NCBI GenBank assembly: GCA_029858565.1
Contig: JAOUEV010000027.1
Location: 1-45,892 of the forward strand
Length of the DNA stretch: 45,892 nt
Source of the DNA: Nitrospirota bacterium
GTDB lineage: Bacteria > Nitrospirota > UBA9217
Direction: 5' to 3'
Of the stretch, positions 6,160 through 45,126 are shown in pieces (within the stretch, counting starts at the first letter, position 1; every line of letters begins with the position of its first letter). The notes under the pieces were generated by a model. That model was not told where the DNA came from. It saw nothing but the letters and a program-made list of their open reading frames with translations, and did not search any database. Made by a program: the position numbers and the translations under genes.

Positions 6160-8094
6160 ATGGAAGAACGCATACAGAAGATCATATCAGCCGCAGGCGT
6201 TGTCTCGCGGCGCGCAGCAGAGGAACTGATCCGCGAGGGACGGGTGCGGGTCAATGGAACGGTGGTGACCGAAATGGGCACCAAGGCCGATCCGGACAAG
6301 GACCATATCAAGGTCGACGGCAAGCTGATCAATCCCCAGCAGCCCAAGACCTACCTGATGTTGAACAAGCCCGTGGGCTATGTCACGACCATGTCCGATC
6401 CTGAAGGCAGGCCGGTTGTCGCCGACCTTCTGAAAGGCGTCAAGGTCCGGGTCTACCCGGTAGGGCGGCTTGACTACGATACGGAAGGGCTGCTCCTGCT
6501 GACGAACGACGGCGACTTCGCCCATCTGGTGACCCATCCCAAGCACGAACTTCCGAAGACCTACCTGGTGAAGGTCAAAGGCGTGCTTTCGGACTCGGAC
6601 GTAGATAACCTGGAAAAGGGCGTATTCCTGAAGGACGGCAAGACCGCTCCCGCGCGCGTGCGAAGGCTGCGCAAGGAAGAATCGAACTCCTATGTGGAGA
6701 TCACGATCCATGAAGGCAGGAAACGCCAGGTGCGCCGCATGATCGACTATACCGGACATTCGGTCATCAAGCTGAAACGGTCCAAGGTCGGCGTCCTTCC
6801 GCTGGGCGATCTGGAACTCGGCGCCTATCGCCACCTGACGAGCGACGAAGTGCGTGCATTGCAGGAAGCCTCACTTCGGGAGCCCGGCGCGGAGACCAAG
6901 CCGCGGTCAACAGCAGCCCGCGCGGTGAAGACTGACGAAAAGATCCTAAAAAAGACCATCAGAAAAAAACGCAGCGATGATATCGAGTTCATTGAACCGC
7001 TGACCACACGGAAACCGCGCAGACCCGCGGCAGCTGGCCGCAGCTATTCAGCGGACCGGCCGGCGCGGGCCGAGTCGCGGGGTCCCCGTTCATCTGACCG
7101 CGAAGCACAGGGATTCGACCGGCCCCCACGTCCGTCGTTCCGGGGCAAGCCTGAAGGCGCAGGCAGCGGGTTCAGATCAGAAGGCAAGCGACCGTCCTTC
7201 CGCAGCAGACCGGAAGGTGACACGGGATACCGTCCGCGCACAAGCGATCGAGGTGAGCGTCCCTCATTCCGCGGTAAACCTGAAGGCCGCACCGGAGGAT
7301 TTCGTCCCCGTTCATCAGATCGTGAAGCACAGGGATTCGACCGGCCCGCACGACCGTCGTTCCGGGGCAAACCCGAAGGCGCAGGCAGCGGGTTCCGATC
7401 AGAAGGCAAACGACCTCCTTTCCGCAGCAGACCGGAAGGTGACACTGGATACCGTCCGCGCACAAGCGATCGAGGCGAGCGTCCCTCATTCCGCGGTAAA
7501 CCTGAAGGCCGCACCGGAGGATTTCGTCCCCGTTCCTCTGATCGCGAAGCACAGGGATTCGACCGGCCCACACGTCCGTCGTTCCGGGGCAAGCCCGAAG
7601 GCGCAGGCAGCGGATCCAGATCAGAAGGCAAGCGACCTCCTTTCCGCAGCAGACCGGAAGGTGACACGGGATACCGTCCGCGCACAAGCGATCGAGGCGA
7701 GCGTCCCTCATTCCGCGGTAAACCTGAAGGCCGCACCGGAGGATTTCGTCCCCGTTCCTCTGATCGCGAAGCACAGGGATTCGACCGGCCCGCGCGTCCG
7801 TCGTTCCGGGGCAAGCCCGAAGGCGCAGCCGGCGGTTTCAGATCAGAAGGCAAAAGACCGTCATTCCGCAGCAAGCCGGAGGGCGGCTCTGCGGGTTTCC
7901 GTCCCCGCACAAGCGAACGCAGTGAGAAAAGCGGAACTGGATCATCGTTCAAGCCACGGGAAAGAGGGTCCTGGGGTAAGGGTCCGGCACGGACATCGGG
8001 TTTCGGTTCCGGTTCCGGCAGGCCCCGTTCTTCAGGCCCCCGTCCGAGCAGGCCGGCAGGGAAGCCTGCTGCAAGGAAAGGCCGCAGGGATTAG
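6160..8094 (+). CDS. RluB-like 23S rRNA pseudouridine synthase with a long repetitive C-terminal tail
   Basis: This RsuA/RluB family enzyme converts uridine to pseudouridine in RNA. An S4 RNA-binding domain (residues 2-50) precedes the catalytic domain. Motif GRLDYDTEGLLLLTNDG (102-118) contains the catalytic Asp105, and GRKRQVRRM follows. The enzyme proper ends near residue 245. After a linker, residues about 310-575 are a low-complexity Arg/Gly/Ser/Pro tail built from 74-residue repeats with RPSFRGKPEG motifs. The tail is probably disordered and RNA-binding, which is an inference. The full 644 residues are more than twice the family norm. The start at 6160 sits right at the S4 domain and directly after a -10 box. 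An in-frame ATG at 6109 exists but lies upstream of that promoter. Confidence 0.9.
   Translation: MEERIQKIISAAGVVSRRAAEELIREGRVRVNGTVVTEMGTKADPDKDHIKVDGKLINPQQPKTYLMLNKPVGYVTTMSDPEGRPVVADLLKGVKVRVYPVGRLDYDTEGLLLLTNDGDFAHLVTHPKHELPKTYLVKVKGVLSDSDVDNLEKGVFLKDGKTAPARVRRLRKEESNSYVEITIHEGRKRQVRRMIDYTGHSVIKLKRSKVGVLPLGDLELGAYRHLTSDEVRALQEASLREPGAETKPRSTAARAVKTDEKILKKTIRKKRSDDIEFIEPLTTRKPRRPAAAGRSYSADRPARAESRGPRSSDREAQGFDRPPRPSFRGKPEGAGSGFRSEGKRPSFRSRPEGDTGYRPRTSDRGERPSFRGKPEGRTGGFRPRSSDREAQGFDRPARPSFRGKPEGAGSGFRSEGKRPPFRSRPEGDTGYRPRTSDRGERPSFRGKPEGRTGGFRPRSSDREAQGFDRPTRPSFRGKPEGAGSGSRSEGKRPPFRSRPEGDTGYRPRTSDRGERPSFRGKPEGRTGGFRPRSSDREAQGFDRPARPSFRGKPEGAAGGFRSEGKRPSFRSKPEGGSAGFRPRTSERSEKSGTGSSFKPRERGSWGKGPARTSGFGSGSGRPRSSGPRPSRPAGKPAARKGRRD
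7088..7880 (+). repeat. 222-bp in-frame tandem repeat inside the pseudouridine synthase gene
   Basis: The marker GAAGCACAG occurs at 7102, 7324, 7546 and 7768, an exact 222-base period. About 3.6 copies are present. Each encodes 74 residues with three related sub-repeats of the form RPSFRxKPEG. Copies differ by scattered, mostly synonymous changes. The period is a multiple of three, so long open frames also appear in the other frames and on the reverse strand. Confidence 0.95.
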
Positions 8095-38490: not shown

Positions 38491-38937
38491 TCAGTCGTTC
38501 ATGGAGGGGATGAACTCCATGTCCGCGATGATTCGCGAGGCTTCGTCGATCTGGATACCGTCATGTTCGGGGTCGCAGATATAGGCTGCCAGGATCGCGC
38601 GCGTTCTATCGACGAGGAACCATATTCGCCAGTGAGCCGGTTCCTTTGTGTCCTTGAGGGTGTAATCGATAGCTGCGATCGCGTGGTCTCCCATGTCCTC
38701 GACGCGTATGGCCTCGCGCGGAAAAGGGATATCCCGGTCCTCAAGCGTATCCTCGATCATGACCGTGGCTTCCTCTGCGGGGGAGCGTTTGGTGTCCTCC
38801 CGTTCGATGAAGGATAGCTGGATCATTCCCGGCCAATTGTCCTTCTCCAAAAGAACGAAGCCCATCTCCTCGCGTTCGGTCCAGCTGTCAGGAAGGAAAA
38901 TATTGATCCACCGCTCGTAAGTTACTTTTTTGCCCAT
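38491..38937 (-). CDS. Hypothetical protein, about 148 aa
   Basis: A cytosolic-looking protein starting MGKKVTYERWINIFLPDSW. It shows alternating strands and helices (GFVLLEKDNWPGMIQLSFIE, in pieces; HAIAAIDYTLKD; WRIWFLVDRTRAILAAYICD) and ends EASRIIADMEFIPSMND. It may resemble small DUF3805-like or PsbP-like alpha/beta proteins, but I do not recognise the family. The start at 38937 is chosen because a TTGACT/TAGTAT promoter ends 10 bases before it; the in-frame ATG at 38949 overlaps that -10 box. Longer frames upstream are not supported. The gene shares a bidirectional terminator with rpoD. Confidence 0.78.
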   Translation of the reverse strand: MGKKVTYERWINIFLPDSWTEREEMGFVLLEKDNWPGMIQLSFIEREDTKRSPAEEATVMIEDTLEDRDIPFPREAIRVEDMGDHAIAAIDYTLKDTKEPAHWRIWFLVDRTRAILAAYICDPEHDGIQIDEASRIIADMEFIPSMND

Positions 38938-39008: not shown

Positions 39009-39533
39009 TTATACGTAACCGAGGGACTCAAGGAGTTCAATGATCCGGTCCGCGTTCAACTCAGGCGGCTGTACGCCGTCAAGGACGATCTCGGGATGGT
39101 CTGGCGGTTCGTATTGTGACTGGATGCCGGGAACGGTCGCGGACCTGCCGGTCCGCGCATCAGCGTATATACCCTTGGGATCGCGGGCCATGCACAGTGC
39201 AAGGGGGCTGTTCACGTAAACTTCCACGAACCGGCTGATCGCGGATCGCGCATGGTCCCTGTAGCTTTTTCGGTTTGCCGTGGCGTCGAATATCACCGGA
39301 ACTCCATCATTGACAGCTGCTGCTCCAATATCGGCAAGCTGCCCGTAGAACCTGTCACGCTCATCATCACTGTATGTCGCTGCCGGGGTCAGGATCCTTC
39401 TCATCCGGTCCGACTCCAGTACGAGGGGGAAGATGTTCCTGCTGTTCAACTTCCTTATCAAGGCCGCTGCAATCGTGCTTTTGCCCGACGCGGGAAGCCC
39501 GGTGACCCATATGGCGAAAGCGTGTGTACTCAT
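39009..39533 (-). CDS. APS-kinase-like P-loop kinase
   Basis: A 174-residue P-loop kinase closest to adenylylsulfate kinase (CysC), which makes PAPS from APS. The Walker A is GLPASGKST (12-20). LESDRMRR stands where CysC has LDGDNVR. FDATANRKSYRDHAR and FVEVYVNSPLALCMARDPKGIY (in CysC, FIEVYVDTP and ERDPKGLY) follow. The changes near the substrate site leave APS as an uncertain substrate. Its ATG overlaps the stop of the upstream kinase gene in an ATGA, so the two are made together. No cysD, cysN or cysH is nearby, which also argues against a plain sulfate-assimilation role. Confidence 0.87.
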   Translation of the reverse strand: MSTHAFAIWVTGLPASGKSTIAAALIRKLNSRNIFPLVLESDRMRRILTPAATYSDDERDRFYGQLADIGAAAVNDGVPVIFDATANRKSYRDHARSAISRFVEVYVNSPLALCMARDPKGIYADARTGRSATVPGIQSQYEPPDHPEIVLDGVQPPELNADRIIELLESLGYV

Positions 39534-40618
39534 GGTCGCAAGTACCTGCTCACCGCGTTGTACTCGAACCGTGGCGTATCCAGAACGTTCAGAATGAAGG
39601 TGAAGATGCTTTTCCGGACGCCGTCGGGAAGGCGGGGGTACCAGACCGGGCTTGCGATCACCAGACCGCGCCACGCAAGGAAGGGCGCGGCAACCTCCAG
39701 GATTCCCCGGTCTCCTGTTCTCTCCAGATAATTTTCCCAGAACAGAAGGAACATCTTTTCGAACGAGCCGTCCAGCCTGCCGAAGCGTACCAGCGAGGAA
39801 AACAGGTAGTTTATGGTCATGCAGGTAACATCATCGGCCGCTTCACCCCATTCTCCCCGGGAGCGGTCAAGTACGGTGAAGTCCACGCCCTTGCGGAACA
39901 GGATGTTCCATGGGTGAAAGTCCCCGTGGACCTGACACAGGCGTTCTCCTCGGTCCTTGATTCGCCACCGCCAATCAACACAAGCGTGCTCGATCTTCTT
40001 GAGAAGGTCGCGGTCGATGAAGTCAAACTGTTCTGGATAGTTATCGGTCAATCCCATGATGCATTCGCCATGACCGATCAGATCCCGGATGCGCCGCCGG
40101 TATAATCCCGGCACATCCCGTCTGACCGCATGGATCGATGCAAGATAGTCGGATAGTGCCCGGACGCGATCCATGTCCTCAGCTGTTGCCGCGCCGGTCT
40201 CGCGTATCCGATCCAGGTCATGGAAGTATCCGGACCCTTCAACGAATTCGGTCAGCAGAAAGAACTCCCGGGCCGCGCCGGTGGACACCATTTCTCCCGA
40301 TTCCAGGAATGCGCCGTTGTCAAGGGATCGGACATGGCGGGGGAGCCGGTTGAATGCCCCGTGTTCCCACAGGATCGCCTGGGCGCGATCGGCGAAGTGA
40401 TCGTGTCCGAACGACGAAGGGGACATGGTCTCAAGTACGGCATGTTTAAGCGATCCGCCTGCCTCATATTCGATGAACAGGGGTGCTCCGTATCCGTATT
40501 CCTTGAGGTCACCGGCAAGCTCCTGCTTGCCGTGCTCGGAGATGGATATGACCTTTACGGGCTGATTCAGCAGCCGTTCAAGATACCGCTTGACCGCATC
40601 GTTGGTGACCGCCGGCAT
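39530..40618 (-). CDS. APH-fold phosphotransferase
   Basis: A 362-residue protein of the aminoglycoside phosphotransferase/choline kinase fold. The catalytic loop CQVHGDFHPWNIL holds Asp233 and Asn238, and the metal-binding Asp251 lies in VLDRSRGEWG. The N-terminal part has a plausible nucleotide lobe (FIEYEAGGSLKHAVLET, in pieces). The substrate is unknown; most chromosomal members are small-molecule kinases rather than drug-resistance genes. AAGGAG lies close before the ATG. It overlaps the APS-kinase-like gene by 4 bases. In other bacteria, proteins fuse an APH-like domain to an ATP-binding P-loop kinase domain, and this pair looks like the unfused version. Confidence 0.9.
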   Translation of the reverse strand: MPAVTNDAVKRYLERLLNQPVKVISISEHGKQELAGDLKEYGYGAPLFIEYEAGGSLKHAVLETMSPSSFGHDHFADRAQAILWEHGAFNRLPRHVRSLDNGAFLESGEMVSTGAAREFFLLTEFVEGSGYFHDLDRIRETGAATAEDMDRVRALSDYLASIHAVRRDVPGLYRRRIRDLIGHGECIMGLTDNYPEQFDFIDRDLLKKIEHACVDWRWRIKDRGERLCQVHGDFHPWNILFRKGVDFTVLDRSRGEWGEAADDVTCMTINYLFSSLVRFGRLDGSFEKMFLLFWENYLERTGDRGILEVAAPFLAWRGLVIASPVWYPRLPDGVRKSIFTFILNVLDTPRFEYNAVSRYLRP

Positions 40619-40713: not shown

Positions 40714-41709
40714 CTAGTTCGCGCCGATGCGTTTCAGTGATGACTCCGGTGATTCGAGGGGCGGGCCTGCGGTGAATGTTTCTTCGTTGAAACGGATCTT
40801 CCGCATCATCCCGGAGATCTTTTTGCTGTAGGTGACGATGAGGCGTCCGGCGAGTATCTTCATCTCCTCTGTTGGAGCGCCGGTCAGGATCGCGGCAGGT
40901 CCCATAAAATCGAACGGCTCCAGCAGATGGTAGCCCGGAGAAGCGATCTCGGCCAGCACCTCATTCTCCCTGCGGTCCCTGCCGAGAACGATGCGCACGC
41001 CTGGAGAGACCTTGAAATGGCGGCCAACGGTCAGGAGGCGGATATCGAGCGGTATCACGCGTTCCTGTTCCTGAAAAAGGTCACGGAGCTTTTCGGAGAA
41101 GTTCTCGTCGGTAAGCAGGCAGCCGCCGGCGGGCGCTGAAAATCCCCGGATGCCGAATCGTTCGGCAAGTTTGAACTGCGCTGTTCTGCCCCTGCCGCTG
41201 AACCCGAGCAAGCGGCTGCGCTCGACAAGGCCGTCCAGCTCGGCCTGCGTGGGCGGCATCACCAGAGCGGAGAGGGGACGCAGGATGCGTCCGCGGAGTC
41301 CGGAATCCCGTTCGATGACATTGAGCGTGTCCCGTCGCTGCGACATGGGGCGCTGGCCCAGCACTTCGCCGGTGATGATGAACGGGGACCCGAGTTCCTC
41401 CATCACCGATCTTGCCTTCTGCAGCATGAAGATCTTGCAGTCAATGCAGGGATTGATGTTCTTTCCATACCCGTGACGGGGATCCCTGATCAGGTCGATG
41501 TATTCCTGACCAAGGTCGATGATCCTGAGCGCGATGCCGGTCTCCTCCGACACCCGCGCTGCGTGAGTGTTCTGTTCATGGCCGAAGGCCTTGGAAAAGG
41601 CTGAGGTGAAGTAGAGACCGGTCACCTCATAGCCCTGGTCCATCACCACGCGCGCCGCCAGAATGCTGTCGAGCCCTCCCGAGATAAGTGCCACTGCTTT
41701 GCGCGCCAC
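40714..41709 (-). CDS. PP-loop tRNA thiolation-type protein with NFACT-like C-terminus
   Basis: The 331-residue protein starts with the PP-loop SGGLDS (residues 10-15) of adenylating, sulfur-inserting enzymes. A CxxC at Cys88/Cys91 (NPCIDCKIF) and the family phrase GEVLGQRPMSQRRDTLN follow. The C-terminal half, with LLTVGRHFKVSPGVRIVLGRD, resembles the NFACT RNA-binding domain (DUF814). Similar proteins are often annotated as ThiI- or MnmA-like tRNA thiouridylases. The exact nucleoside is unknown. The start is GTG at 41709 with AAGGAGG ideally placed, and the promoter is 25 bases upstream. It is divergent from pheS. Confidence 0.86.
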   Translation of the reverse strand: MARKAVALISGGLDSILAARVVMDQGYEVTGLYFTSAFSKAFGHEQNTHAARVSEETGIALRIIDLGQEYIDLIRDPRHGYGKNINPCIDCKIFMLQKARSVMEELGSPFIITGEVLGQRPMSQRRDTLNVIERDSGLRGRILRPLSALVMPPTQAELDGLVERSRLLGFSGRGRTAQFKLAERFGIRGFSAPAGGCLLTDENFSEKLRDLFQEQERVIPLDIRLLTVGRHFKVSPGVRIVLGRDRRENEVLAEIASPGYHLLEPFDFMGPAAILTGAPTEEMKILAGRLIVTYSKKISGMMRKIRFNEETFTAGPPLESPESSLKRIGAN

Positions 41710-41866: not shown

Positions 41867-43435
41867 ATGGATATCTCCTCGCTGAATAAACTGTTCGAAA
41901 GCCTCCATCCGCTCGAGAACAAATTCCTTCTGACCTTTGCCCAGGGCGACCTTTTGACCGCACCGCGGGTCATCGAACTGTCAGGCCTTGACGAGTCGCG
42001 CCTTGACATGGCATCGGGCTGGCTTGTATCGAAGGGGCTGCTCTCGGTCACCGAGGAACCGGGTGTCTCCCTGGTGACGCTCACCGAGACCGGTTCTGAA
42101 TACCGCGATAAGGGCACTCCGGAGCAGCGCATCATCAGGGCGCTCCAGGAGGGAAAACAGTTCTCGGTCAAGGATATCATCCAGACCTGGGGCATGGATC
42201 CCTCGGAGGTCAGCTCCGCCACCGGCAGCCTCAAGGCGAGCGGCGTGATCCGGATCGTCCAGGGCGGCATTCTGGAACTCGTCACCGGTGCGGACCTGCG
42301 TGCATACGAATACCTTGGAACGGTGATCTCCGAGGTGGGCAGCGGTACCTCTCTCGTGCTTTCCAGTCTTACGCCGGACAAACAGGAACTGGTCCAGGCC
42401 AATTTCCACAAGCGCGGCAAAGGGAAGGGCATCTTCCGCATCACGGAAAAGAAGAACCGCACTTTTTCCCTCACCGAGGCCGGCAAGGAGATCCTGCGGC
42501 TCCTGCGGGAACGCGGAGCCGTGACCGAGGAGGCCTCGGCACTCACCCCGGACATGCTGAAACAGGGGACCTGGAAGAACGTCCGGTTCCGTTCCTACAA
42601 TATTTCGCTGAACCCTCCCCGCACCAGCATCGGCAGGAAGCATCCCTACCGGGAGTTCCTCGATTACGTGAAGTATCAGTTCGTGAGCATGGGATTCCAG
42701 GAGATGCGCGGTCCGCTCGTGGAGAACGAGTTCTGGGACATGGACGCGCTCTTCATGCCCCAGTTCCATCCCGCCCGGAACATCCACGATGTCTATTTCG
42801 TAAAAGATCCGTCCCACGCAAAGGAGATCGAAGCGCCCTTTGGCAGGCAGGTCGCTGCAGCGCATCGTGACGGCGGCAGGACCGGGTCCACGGGCTGGCG
42901 CTATCAGTTCGATTTCGAACGCACGCGGCGGCTGATCCTCCGGAGCCAGGGCACGGCGGTCTCGGCGCGCACGCTCGCGTCAGGTCCCAAAGTGCCGGGC
43001 AAATATTTTTCCATTGCACGGTGCTTCCGTTATGACGCCGTTGATGCGACCCATGCGCCTGATTTCAACCAGGTGGAGGGGATTGTGCTGGGCGAGGACA
43101 TCAATTTCCGGACCCTCCTCGGTCTTCTGAAGCTCTTTGGACAGGAGATCGCCAAAGCTGAAGAGTTCCAGTTCCGGCCGGCCTATTTCCCTTTCACCGA
43201 ACCGTCGGTGGAACTGCATGTGAAGCATCCGAAGCTGGGCTGGATGGAGCTTGGCGGCGCGGGGATCTTCCGGCCCGAGGTGACGCTGCCGCTGGGCGTT
43301 GATGTCCCGGTCATTGCCTGGGGCCTGGGTCTGGACCGCATGGCCATGGTGGCCCTGGGCATCCAGGACATCCGCGACCTGTTCTCGCGGGACCTTGATT
43401 TTGTAAGGACGAAAAAGATCAAACTCGGCCAATAG
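41867..43435 (+). CDS. pheS: Phenylalanyl-tRNA synthetase alpha subunit, archaeal/eukaryotic type
   Basis: The alpha subunit holds the class II catalytic core that charges tRNA-Phe. At 522 residues it is far longer than the usual bacterial PheS (about 330-350). Residues 1-215 are three winged-helix-like modules (LFESLHPLENKFLLTFAQG, EQRIIRALQEGKQFSVKDI and FSLTEAGKEILRLLRE, all shown in part), as in archaeal and cytosolic eukaryotic PheRS. The catalytic core has motif 1 near YKYQFV..GFQEMRGPLVE, motif 2 at about 381-405 (FSIARCFRYDAVDATHAPDF) and motif 3 at 486-495 (GLGLDRMAMV). pheT follows after 8 bases. Confidence 0.96.
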   Translation: MDISSLNKLFESLHPLENKFLLTFAQGDLLTAPRVIELSGLDESRLDMASGWLVSKGLLSVTEEPGVSLVTLTETGSEYRDKGTPEQRIIRALQEGKQFSVKDIIQTWGMDPSEVSSATGSLKASGVIRIVQGGILELVTGADLRAYEYLGTVISEVGSGTSLVLSSLTPDKQELVQANFHKRGKGKGIFRITEKKNRTFSLTEAGKEILRLLRERGAVTEEASALTPDMLKQGTWKNVRFRSYNISLNPPRTSIGRKHPYREFLDYVKYQFVSMGFQEMRGPLVENEFWDMDALFMPQFHPARNIHDVYFVKDPSHAKEIEAPFGRQVAAAHRDGGRTGSTGWRYQFDFERTRRLILRSQGTAVSARTLASGPKVPGKYFSIARCFRYDAVDATHAPDFNQVEGIVLGEDINFRTLLGLLKLFGQEIAKAEEFQFRPAYFPFTEPSVELHVKHPKLGWMELGGAGIFRPEVTLPLGVDVPVIAWGLGLDRMAMVALGIQDIRDLFSRDLDFVRTKKIKLGQ

Positions 43436-43443
43436 ACGAAACA

Positions 43444-45126
43444 ATGCCTACGATAGATATAAAGAAGAAGGACCTCGACGGCTTGATCGGGAAGAAACTT
43501 TCCCTGGAAACGCTCGAAAACCACTTGAAGCTCGCCAAGGCGGAGTTGAAGGAGTACAACGCCGAGAGCGACGATATGAAGGTGGAGCTGTCCGACAGCA
43601 ACCGCCCCGATCTATGGTGCGCAGAGGGCGTGGCGCGCCAGATCAGGATGCACTTGACCGGCAAGCCCGAGGAGTATCCCTTCTTCAAACCCGGCAGGAA
43701 AGCGACGCGGATCATCCGCGTGGCAAAGGACATGAAGGCCGTGCGTCCGTACCTGGCCGCCTGCACTGCTCAGGGCATCAGGATGAACGACGCGGTCCTG
43801 ACCCAGATGATCCAGAGCCAGGACAAGCTCGCTGAGATCTTCGGCAGAAAGCGTTCCACGGTGTCGATCGGTATCTACGAACTGGACAAGATCGCGTTCC
43901 CTGTGGATTACCGTCTTGCTGCGCCCGACGAGATATCTTTCACTCCGCTGGGCATGACCGAGAAGATGACGCTCGGCCGCATCCTTGACCAGCATCCCAA
44001 GGGCATCCAGTACGGCGGGATCGTGCGGCCCTTCAAAAAGTACCCGGTCTTGATCGACGGCATGAACCAGGTGCTGTCCTTTCCGCCGATCATCAACAGC
44101 ACGGAGATCGGCGAGGTAAAGACCACCACCCGCAATGTCCTGGTCGAGGTGACCGGAACGGACCAGCGCATGGTCGCGCTCACCCTGAACATCATCGCGG
44201 TCAGCCTTTACGACCGGGGCGCCGAGATCGATCCGGTCCAGGTCGTTTGTCCTTATGCCACCGACCTCGGCAAGAACATCACCTTTCCCCGGGACACGTC
44301 GATCACGGTCTCGCTCTCACCGGAGCGGTTCTCTCAGGCGCTTGGCGAGGATGTTTCCGCAGTTGATCTGAAGCGCCGGCTGACCGCTTATGGTCACCGC
44401 GTGCGCAGTATGGGAAAGGCGCTCAAGATCACCTGTCCGCCCTACCGCGACGACATGATGCATCCCATGGACATGGTGGAGGATTACGCCATCAGCAGGG
44501 GGTACGAATCCTTCGAGGCGGTGATGCCCAGGGAATCCACGGTCGGCGGACTTTCGTCGCTCGAAGTGTTCTCGGACACGGTCCGCGGCCATATGGTGGG
44601 CACGGGCTTCCAGGAGTTCGTATCGAACATTCTCTGCTCCCGCGAGGAACTCGCCGACGCCCTCTCGGCGGACGACCGTCTGATCGAAGTTGACAATGTC
44701 ATGTCCCTTGCCTATTCCGTGGTCCGACACAGCGTGCTGCCGTCGCTCCTGAACGTCGAGTCGGCAAGTTCCAAGGCGTTCTATCCCCACCGGACCTTCG
44801 AGGTCGGCGAGGTCGCGCTTCCGGACAGCGGCAGCATCATGGGAACGCGGACGGACCTTAACCTCGGAGCGATCATATCTCATCCAACGGCAAATTTTTC
44901 CGAGATGCACTCCACGCTTGACGTATTGCTCTACTACCTCGGCATTGAGTACAAGCTTGTGCCGTCGGAACATCCACTGTTCCTTAGCGGTCGGTGCGGG
45001 AAAGTGCAGGCCGGAGACAATGTGTTGGGCTATATCGGCGAATTGCGGCCCGAGGTGCTTGAGCGGAGGCAGATCGCCATGCCGACGGCAGCGTTCGAGA
45101 TCAATCTAAATAGGATACAGCTGTAG
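43444..45126 (+). CDS. pheT: Phenylalanyl-tRNA synthetase beta subunit, archaeal/eukaryotic type
   Basis: The beta subunit of 560 residues is the short archaeal type, lacking the N-terminal tRNA-binding domain and the C-terminal anticodon-binding domain of the roughly 800-residue bacterial PheT. Features are the N-terminal DGLIGKKLSLETLENHL, the RPDLWCAEGVARQIR and B3/4-type phrase (IGIYELDKIAFPV). The B5 region (LKRRLTAYGHRVRSMG, then CPPYRDDMMHPMDMVEDYAI) and a catalytic-like C-terminal domain follow. pheS and pheT of the same foreign type sit together, so the whole enzyme was probably exchanged as a unit. There is no clear Shine-Dalgarno sequence, so translation may be coupled to pheS. Confidence 0.95.
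   Translation: MPTIDIKKKDLDGLIGKKLSLETLENHLKLAKAELKEYNAESDDMKVELSDSNRPDLWCAEGVARQIRMHLTGKPEEYPFFKPGRKATRIIRVAKDMKAVRPYLAACTAQGIRMNDAVLTQMIQSQDKLAEIFGRKRSTVSIGIYELDKIAFPVDYRLAAPDEISFTPLGMTEKMTLGRILDQHPKGIQYGGIVRPFKKYPVLIDGMNQVLSFPPIINSTEIGEVKTTTRNVLVEVTGTDQRMVALTLNIIAVSLYDRGAEIDPVQVVCPYATDLGKNITFPRDTSITVSLSPERFSQALGEDVSAVDLKRRLTAYGHRVRSMGKALKITCPPYRDDMMHPMDMVEDYAISRGYESFEAVMPRESTVGGLSSLEVFSDTVRGHMVGTGFQEFVSNILCSREELADALSADDRLIEVDNVMSLAYSVVRHSVLPSLLNVESASSKAFYPHRTFEVGEVALPDSGSIMGTRTDLNLGAIISHPTANFSEMHSTLDVLLYYLGIEYKLVPSEHPLFLSGRCGKVQAGDNVLGYIGELRPEVLERRQIAMPTAAFEINLNRIQL

Follow-up and report, generated by a model that had tools for sequence, protein, structure and literature searches.

A conserved pair of overlapping kinase genes

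Two genes on the minus strand of the DNA analyzed here, a 45,892-nucleotide stretch from a Nitrospirota bacterium (the window), almost certainly form one functional unit. One encodes an APH-fold kinase, and the other encodes a P-loop kinase of the APS-kinase fold that belongs to a divergent clade. The best explanation for them, which we put forward tentatively and at somewhat less than an even chance, is that of two small-molecule kinases working in series, as one unit, on a SAM (adenosyl) metabolite.

The APH gene comes first (positions 39530 to 40618; 362 aa) and is followed by the APS-kinase-like gene (39009 to 39533; 174 aa), whose ATG lies at 39533. The two genes share the 4 bases ATGA at 39530 to 39533 on the minus strand, in agreement with a preliminary description of this DNA that had reported an overlap of this length. 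If the APS-kinase-like gene began instead at an in-frame GTG farther upstream (39674), the overlap would be longer, but relatives of the gene start near the ATG. The pair is flanked on the same strand by an upstream gene for a PP-loop (ThiI-like) protein with an NFACT-R_2 domain (40714 to 41709) and a downstream gene for a protein of about 148 aa without a Pfam match (38491 to 38937, the start being deduced from relatives). With the PP-loop protein, which is ThiI/MnmA-like, no named NCBIfam family reached its cut-off. Both neighbors were found in the window's own family (f1) only. The ThiI-like gene is possibly cotranscribed with the pair, outside the conserved core.

The co-occurrence of the two families was counted in two phyla, as raw numbers uncorrected for shared ancestry. 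Among 61 Nitrospirota genomes, 39 carried the APH family; the divergent APS-kinase-like gene was present in 36 of these 39 genomes and in 1 of the 22 genomes without APH (kinship ignored). As for the exceptions, the genomes were incomplete, the match was a weak fragment, or, in one case, the gene lay at the edge of its contig. Within the archaeal phylum that holds ANME-2 (247 genomes), the APS-kinase-like gene was found in 65 of the 68 genomes with APH versus 1 of the 179 genomes without it, when five cut-off or partial matches were scored as present. The APH family was detected elsewhere as well: 13 of 237 genomes had it in the Myxococcota, the phylum to which a Polyangiaceae MAG belongs, as did 9 of 198 in the phylum to which a "Deltaproteobacteria" MAG belongs and a single one of 243 Thermoplasmatota genomes.

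Synteny was examined in 53 linked loci from four phyla and both domains. The two genes lay on one strand in all of them, and the APH gene came first in 52. With order and strand kept so consistently over four phyla, the conservation of the pair is more than chance. Of the 52 loci with APH-first order, 26 also offer a start codon that would give the same -4 overlap. The pairwise distances of the paired proteins were correlated as well (r = 0.86; 52 pairs). As judged from these genome sequences, the two families were shown to be inherited together across domains, mostly as adjacent genes.

The preliminary description had likened the pair to fused APH/P-loop kinases. In fused proteins of this kind (COG2187/COG0645), an APH kinase and a P-loop kinase are joined in one unit. 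Compared with them by description, the present pair differs in consisting of separate genes and in having a P-loop partner of the APS-kinase fold. The likeness did not extend to the present family, in which no convincing fusion was found. The sole candidate, an apparent APH-APSK fusion at L148 7890-9398, was rejected because its APS-kinase match begins at profile position 31 and lacks the P-loop region; it is probably the product of a deletion or an assembly error.

Divergence of the APS-kinase-like protein

The APS-kinase-like protein matched Pfam APS_kinase (PF01583) with 116.9 bits, and its score against the curated APS-kinase equivalog TIGR00455 was under the cut-off (124.5 versus 138.7 bits). 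Its AlphaFold model (mean pLDDT, 94.2) aligned with solved APS kinases at a TM of 0.94. In addition to the fold, the protein has the P-loop and the KG(I/L)Y lid region in common with APS kinase (CysC). In a tree, however, it fell among 61 divergent sequences that stood apart from all 46 canonical APS kinases, the window genome's own canonical enzyme being counted among the latter, and this split had a support of 100.

A column comparison showed that the divergent clade keeps the P-loop, D42, R45, R59, R92, R96, R117, Y123, and G136, whereas N62 is changed to F, V, or L, R65 is lost, Y63 is gained, SFISPY is replaced by DATANR, and F134-T135 is replaced by V-P. The corresponding sites in the window are all on the minus strand. 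LESDRMR (residues 39 to 45; 39399 to 39419) is the altered substrate motif, with D42 and R45 kept, and the LESDRMRR that had been noticed earlier in place of the canonical LDGDNVR is indeed present. DATANR (residues 83 to 88; 39270 to 39287) stands where canonical enzymes have a SFISPY-type motif, and VPG (residues 134 to 136; 39126 to 39134) stands where they have F-T-G. Relative to CysC, DGDN, SFISPY, and FTG become (E/x)(S/x)D, DATAN, and VPG. When the APS-site motifs (DGDN..R, N62, R65, SFISPY, and FTG) were checked in the protein, just D42, R45, R59, R92, and G136 proved to be kept.

In the known APS kinase structures, several of the positions that the divergent clade has lost touch the adenine ring, and the arginines that it keeps touch the acidic part of APS. 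Since the adenine contacts are lost and the acid-contacting arginines are kept, we infer that the substrate would be an anionic (phosphorylated) compound other than APS, bound by an arginine-rich site. The protein is probably not an APS kinase.

A degenerate APS kinase homologue was also seen at L029 6001-6483, in a Polyangiaceae genome that holds the pair elsewhere.

Sulfur genes of the window genome

A whole-genome search gave two APS_kinase matches in the window genome, one being the window gene and the other a canonical APS kinase (213.5 bits) on contig C74 (L100 9776-10288). As reported earlier, the pair has no other sulfate-assimilation gene nearby: none was present among the long ORFs of the window, and the only ATP sulfurylase match in the genome was on yet another contig (C134; L224), followed by aprB- and aprA-like genes according to sequence reading. 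This sat-aprBA locus looks like a dissimilatory sulfur locus. Because the canonical APS kinase and the sat-aprBA locus lie elsewhere in the genome, the pair is not needed to explain sulfate activation. It very probably stands outside sulfate assimilation.

Could the protein nevertheless be a genuine APS kinase that makes PAPS, with the APH protein as an unrelated companion? Its fold is that of APS kinases, and in 62 of the 65 archaeal genomes with the two genes, the same scan picked up no canonical APS kinase. Moreover, ANME genomes are reported to contain cysC: a 2018 study of sulfate assimilation in ANME listed an APS kinase for ANME-1b and ANME-2c, and the ANME-1b "APS kinase" was expressed, detected in metaproteomes, and taken as evidence for sulfate assimilation in methane-oxidizing archaea (PMC6286981). 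In the ANME-2 genome that we examined, the scan gave the divergent form alone. We nevertheless consider a genuine APS kinase very unlikely, in view of the replaced APS-site motifs, the score under the TIGR00455 cut-off, the position of the pair away from sulfate genes in the loci read, the separate canonical APS kinase of the window genome, and a near-obligate partner that is a non-sulfur kinase. Automatic annotation likely names the two proteins adenylyl-sulfate kinase and aminoglycoside phosphotransferase. If the name APS kinase is wrong, the claims of sulfate assimilation built on it, possibly including those of PMC6286981, need a second look.

The canonical APS kinase on C74 lies, according to sequence reading, in an exopolysaccharide-like locus together with a sulfotransferase-like gene, suggesting a sulfated polysaccharide. 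Homologues of APS kinase that have taken up other substrates are found in capsule clusters, an example being Campylobacter Cj1415, a cytidine diphosphoramidate kinase. Likened by description, the present protein is similar to Cj1415 as an APS-kinase homologue that has probably moved off APS, and it differs from Cj1415 in not lying in a capsule cluster. Such precedents would favor a role of the pair in modifying the envelope or exopolysaccharide. However, the exopolysaccharide-like locus holds the canonical APS kinase of this genome, not the pair, and no glycosyltransferase or other envelope gene recurred beside the pair in the neighborhoods read. The genes that did recur in this survey were those of the SAM cycle and, secondarily, of tRNA modification. 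An envelope role is therefore extremely unlikely. The preliminary description had envisaged a two-kinase pathway serving either a metabolite or an envelope modification; two kinases acting together on a non-APS substrate are supported by the co-occurrence, the synteny, the loss of the APS-site motifs, and the canonical APS kinase elsewhere in the genome, but the envelope part of the proposal is not upheld.

A shifted lysine in the APH partner

The APH protein matched Pfam APH (PF01636) with 33.9 bits (cut-off, 23.2). PDB phmmer and profile searches with this protein gave no sequence match below an E value of 0.01. The AlphaFold model had a mean pLDDT of 85.4, with residues 30 to 43 below 50, and its Foldseek matches were small-molecule kinases of the APH fold, including homoserine kinase, none of which was decisive. 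The protein has the fold and the HGDxHxxN...D pattern in common with homoserine kinase II, methylthioribose kinase, and 25-hydroxysteroid kinase (PF01636). It differs from these APH-fold enzymes in that the TM values reached just about 0.5 to 0.6, in having a signature of its own (GHDHxxDRA, IGHGECxMG, and LDRxRG), and in the relocated lysine of the main APH branch of the pair. Six arginines (R175, R178, R217, R226, R252, and R254) were invariant in the alignment and suggest an anionic substrate for this protein. A role in aminoglycoside resistance was also considered and rejected: the protein has no close match to known enzymes, the gene is chromosomal and conserved in archaea, and no relative was found in plasmid records.

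The catalytic D and the metal-binding N and D (D233, N238, and D251 in the window protein) were kept in 93 of 94 APH copies, the exception, L198, being at a contig end. The lysine expected in beta-3 behaved differently. A lysine in the glycine-rich loop (KxxGYG type) was present in 83 of the 94 APH relatives, none of which had the beta-3 lysine, and the beta-3 lysine was present in 10, none of which had the loop lysine; one truncated row was unscored. In the loop-lysine branch, the beta-3 lysine was replaced by E, S, H, R, A, D, or G, with arginine in three sequences. The window protein has E63 at the usual beta-3 lysine position (VLETMSP; codon at 40430 to 40432, minus strand) and K39 in the glycine-rich loop LKEYGYG (codon at 40502 to 40504, minus strand). 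K39 appears to replace the missing beta-3 lysine as the ATP anchor, a swap that rests on sequence because the glycine-rich loop was modeled with low confidence. The 10 copies with the beta-3 lysine were solitary and came from Nitrospirota f4, f11, f13, and f15, plus one from the "Deltaproteobacteria" phylum. Seven of the nine Nitrospirota genomes concerned had an unlinked, shorter APS-kinase-like gene, and the other two were incomplete.

The same shift of the ATP-anchoring positive charge from beta-3 to the glycine-rich loop is found in WNK kinases, in which activity can persist, and in the CAK-chloro subfamily (PMC1821047). The APH protein of the pair belongs to another family, with a KxxGYG loop and mostly E, S, or H in beta-3. 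Replacement of the beta-3 lysine could also mean that the APH protein has become a pseudokinase and serves its APS-kinase-fold partner as a regulator or scaffold, in which case this partner alone would be an active kinase. Near-obligate pairing and the coevolution of the two proteins would fit such a role. However, the catalytic and metal-binding residues are kept in nearly every copy, every copy in the branch without the beta-3 lysine has the loop lysine, related solitary copies retain the canonical lysine, and the WNK kinases show that a shift of this kind is compatible with activity. We thus regard a pseudokinase as quite unlikely. The shifted lysine provides a clean natural experiment in kinase evolution.

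SAM-cycle genes beside the pair

In archaea, a recurrent operon was formed by SAH hydrolase, often a PfkB gene, APH, the APS-kinase-like gene, and an IMPase/FBPase gene. SAH hydrolase was present in 15 archaeal loci, and the IMPase gene overlapped the APS-kinase-like gene in archaeal loci. The PfkB protein was close to PDB 3kd6 (311 bits), which we take to be a nucleoside kinase. A second archaeal arrangement consisted of SAH hydrolase, APH, and an RNA-methyltransferase-like gene, with a 4-base overlap between SAH hydrolase and APH (L136). In L148, L149, L176, and L180, one gene cluster adjoined SAH hydrolase on the opposite strand, and its member in L149 was a bacterial-type SAM synthetase. 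Among the Nitrospirota, an archaeal-type SAM synthetase gene directly followed the pair in f6 and f8, and lay two ORFs away in f3, where a SAM hydrolase gene was on the other side of the pair. IMPase adjoined the solitary APH gene in f4 and was absent from several f3 genomes that keep the pair. In f8 (L077 12602-14554) and relatives, three conserved proteins without a Pfam match were also seen beside SAM synthetase and DksA-like genes.

The linkage to the SAM cycle, by which the principal methyl donor of the cell is formed and regenerated, thus recurred in independent lineages, namely, archaea and Nitrospirota f3, f6, and f8. The case is built on several arrangements that are independent of one another and involve two unrelated types of SAM synthetase, and the window's own neighborhood, which has no SAM gene, is not among them; the SAM synthetase gene of this genome is on another contig. 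Universal stress (Usp)/CBS genes were near the Myxococcota pairs, in place of SAM genes, and near some other pairs, and many archaeal loci had unrelated housekeeping neighbors. Rfam scans of the window and 17 neighborhoods found no SAM or SAH riboswitch. Taken as a whole, a tie between the pair and the SAM cycle is somewhat likely.

The strongest rival to a SAM-related function is that the pair acts on tRNA or a tRNA-modification intermediate, with the APS-kinase-fold protein resembling its distant relatives KTI12 or PSTK. The KTI12 and PSTK models gave weak matches, an archaeosine-synthase-like gene overlapped APH, poly(A)-polymerase/CCA-type genes and a MiaB-like gene recurred beside the pair or APH, and both the RNA-methyltransferase-like gene that follows SAH hydrolase and APH and the ThiI-like gene of the window would fit as well. 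However, no RNA-binding domain was seen in either protein, and the fold of the APS-kinase-like protein is that of a plain APS kinase. These neighbors also vary by lineage, housekeeping genes often cluster, and the archaeal core, with its genes for a nucleoside-kinase-like protein and a phosphatase, suggests a small-molecule substrate. A tRNA substrate is therefore unlikely.

Solitary genes provided the context for another alternative, namely, a role of the pair in making cobamides, such as that of a threonine or aminopropanol phosphate kinase. According to sequence reading, solitary APH genes are near corrin-pathway-like genes in Nitrospirota f4 and f15, as is the solitary APS-kinase-like gene in f4, and homoserine kinase was among the fold matches of the APH protein. 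This context was limited to the branch with unlinked genes, and the corrin gene names come from sequence reading, without a family scan. Because corrin methylation uses SAM, a function in SAM metabolism would explain the same context. We consider a role in cobamide synthesis highly improbable.

A possible two-kinase pathway

In the proposed pathway, both enzymes would be active, and their arginine-rich sites would bind a phosphorylated substrate instead of APS. One kinase may give a monophosphate and the other a bisphosphate, in either order. In archaea, the adjoining protein of the IMPase/FBPase family might then take off one phosphate. The recurrence of SAM synthetase, SAH hydrolase, and nucleoside-kinase-like neighbors suggests a substrate from the adenosyl or ribosyl side of the cycle. 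Phosphorylation in series of a SAM-derived metabolite is possible, though rather doubtful. Equally speculative is the fuller proposal of a new two-kinase pathway that leads to a bisphosphorylated, adenosyl- or ribosyl-derived SAM metabolite, combines an APS-kinase-fold enzyme of new specificity with a WNK-like APH kinase, and is common to ANME-type archaea, Nitrospirota, Myxococcota, and a further bacterial phylum. A search of the open-access literature on the pair, SAH-hydrolase operons, and related salvage routes found no description of the pair. Its near-obligate pairing offers a testable route to a new reaction near the SAM cycle.

Two further features of the window were observed. Both phenylalanyl-tRNA synthetase subunits encoded at 41867 to 45126 look archaeal in type, as read from their length and sequence. 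At 6900 to 8000, the C-terminal tail of a pseudouridine-synthase-like protein contains long repeats with many R, G, S, and P residues.
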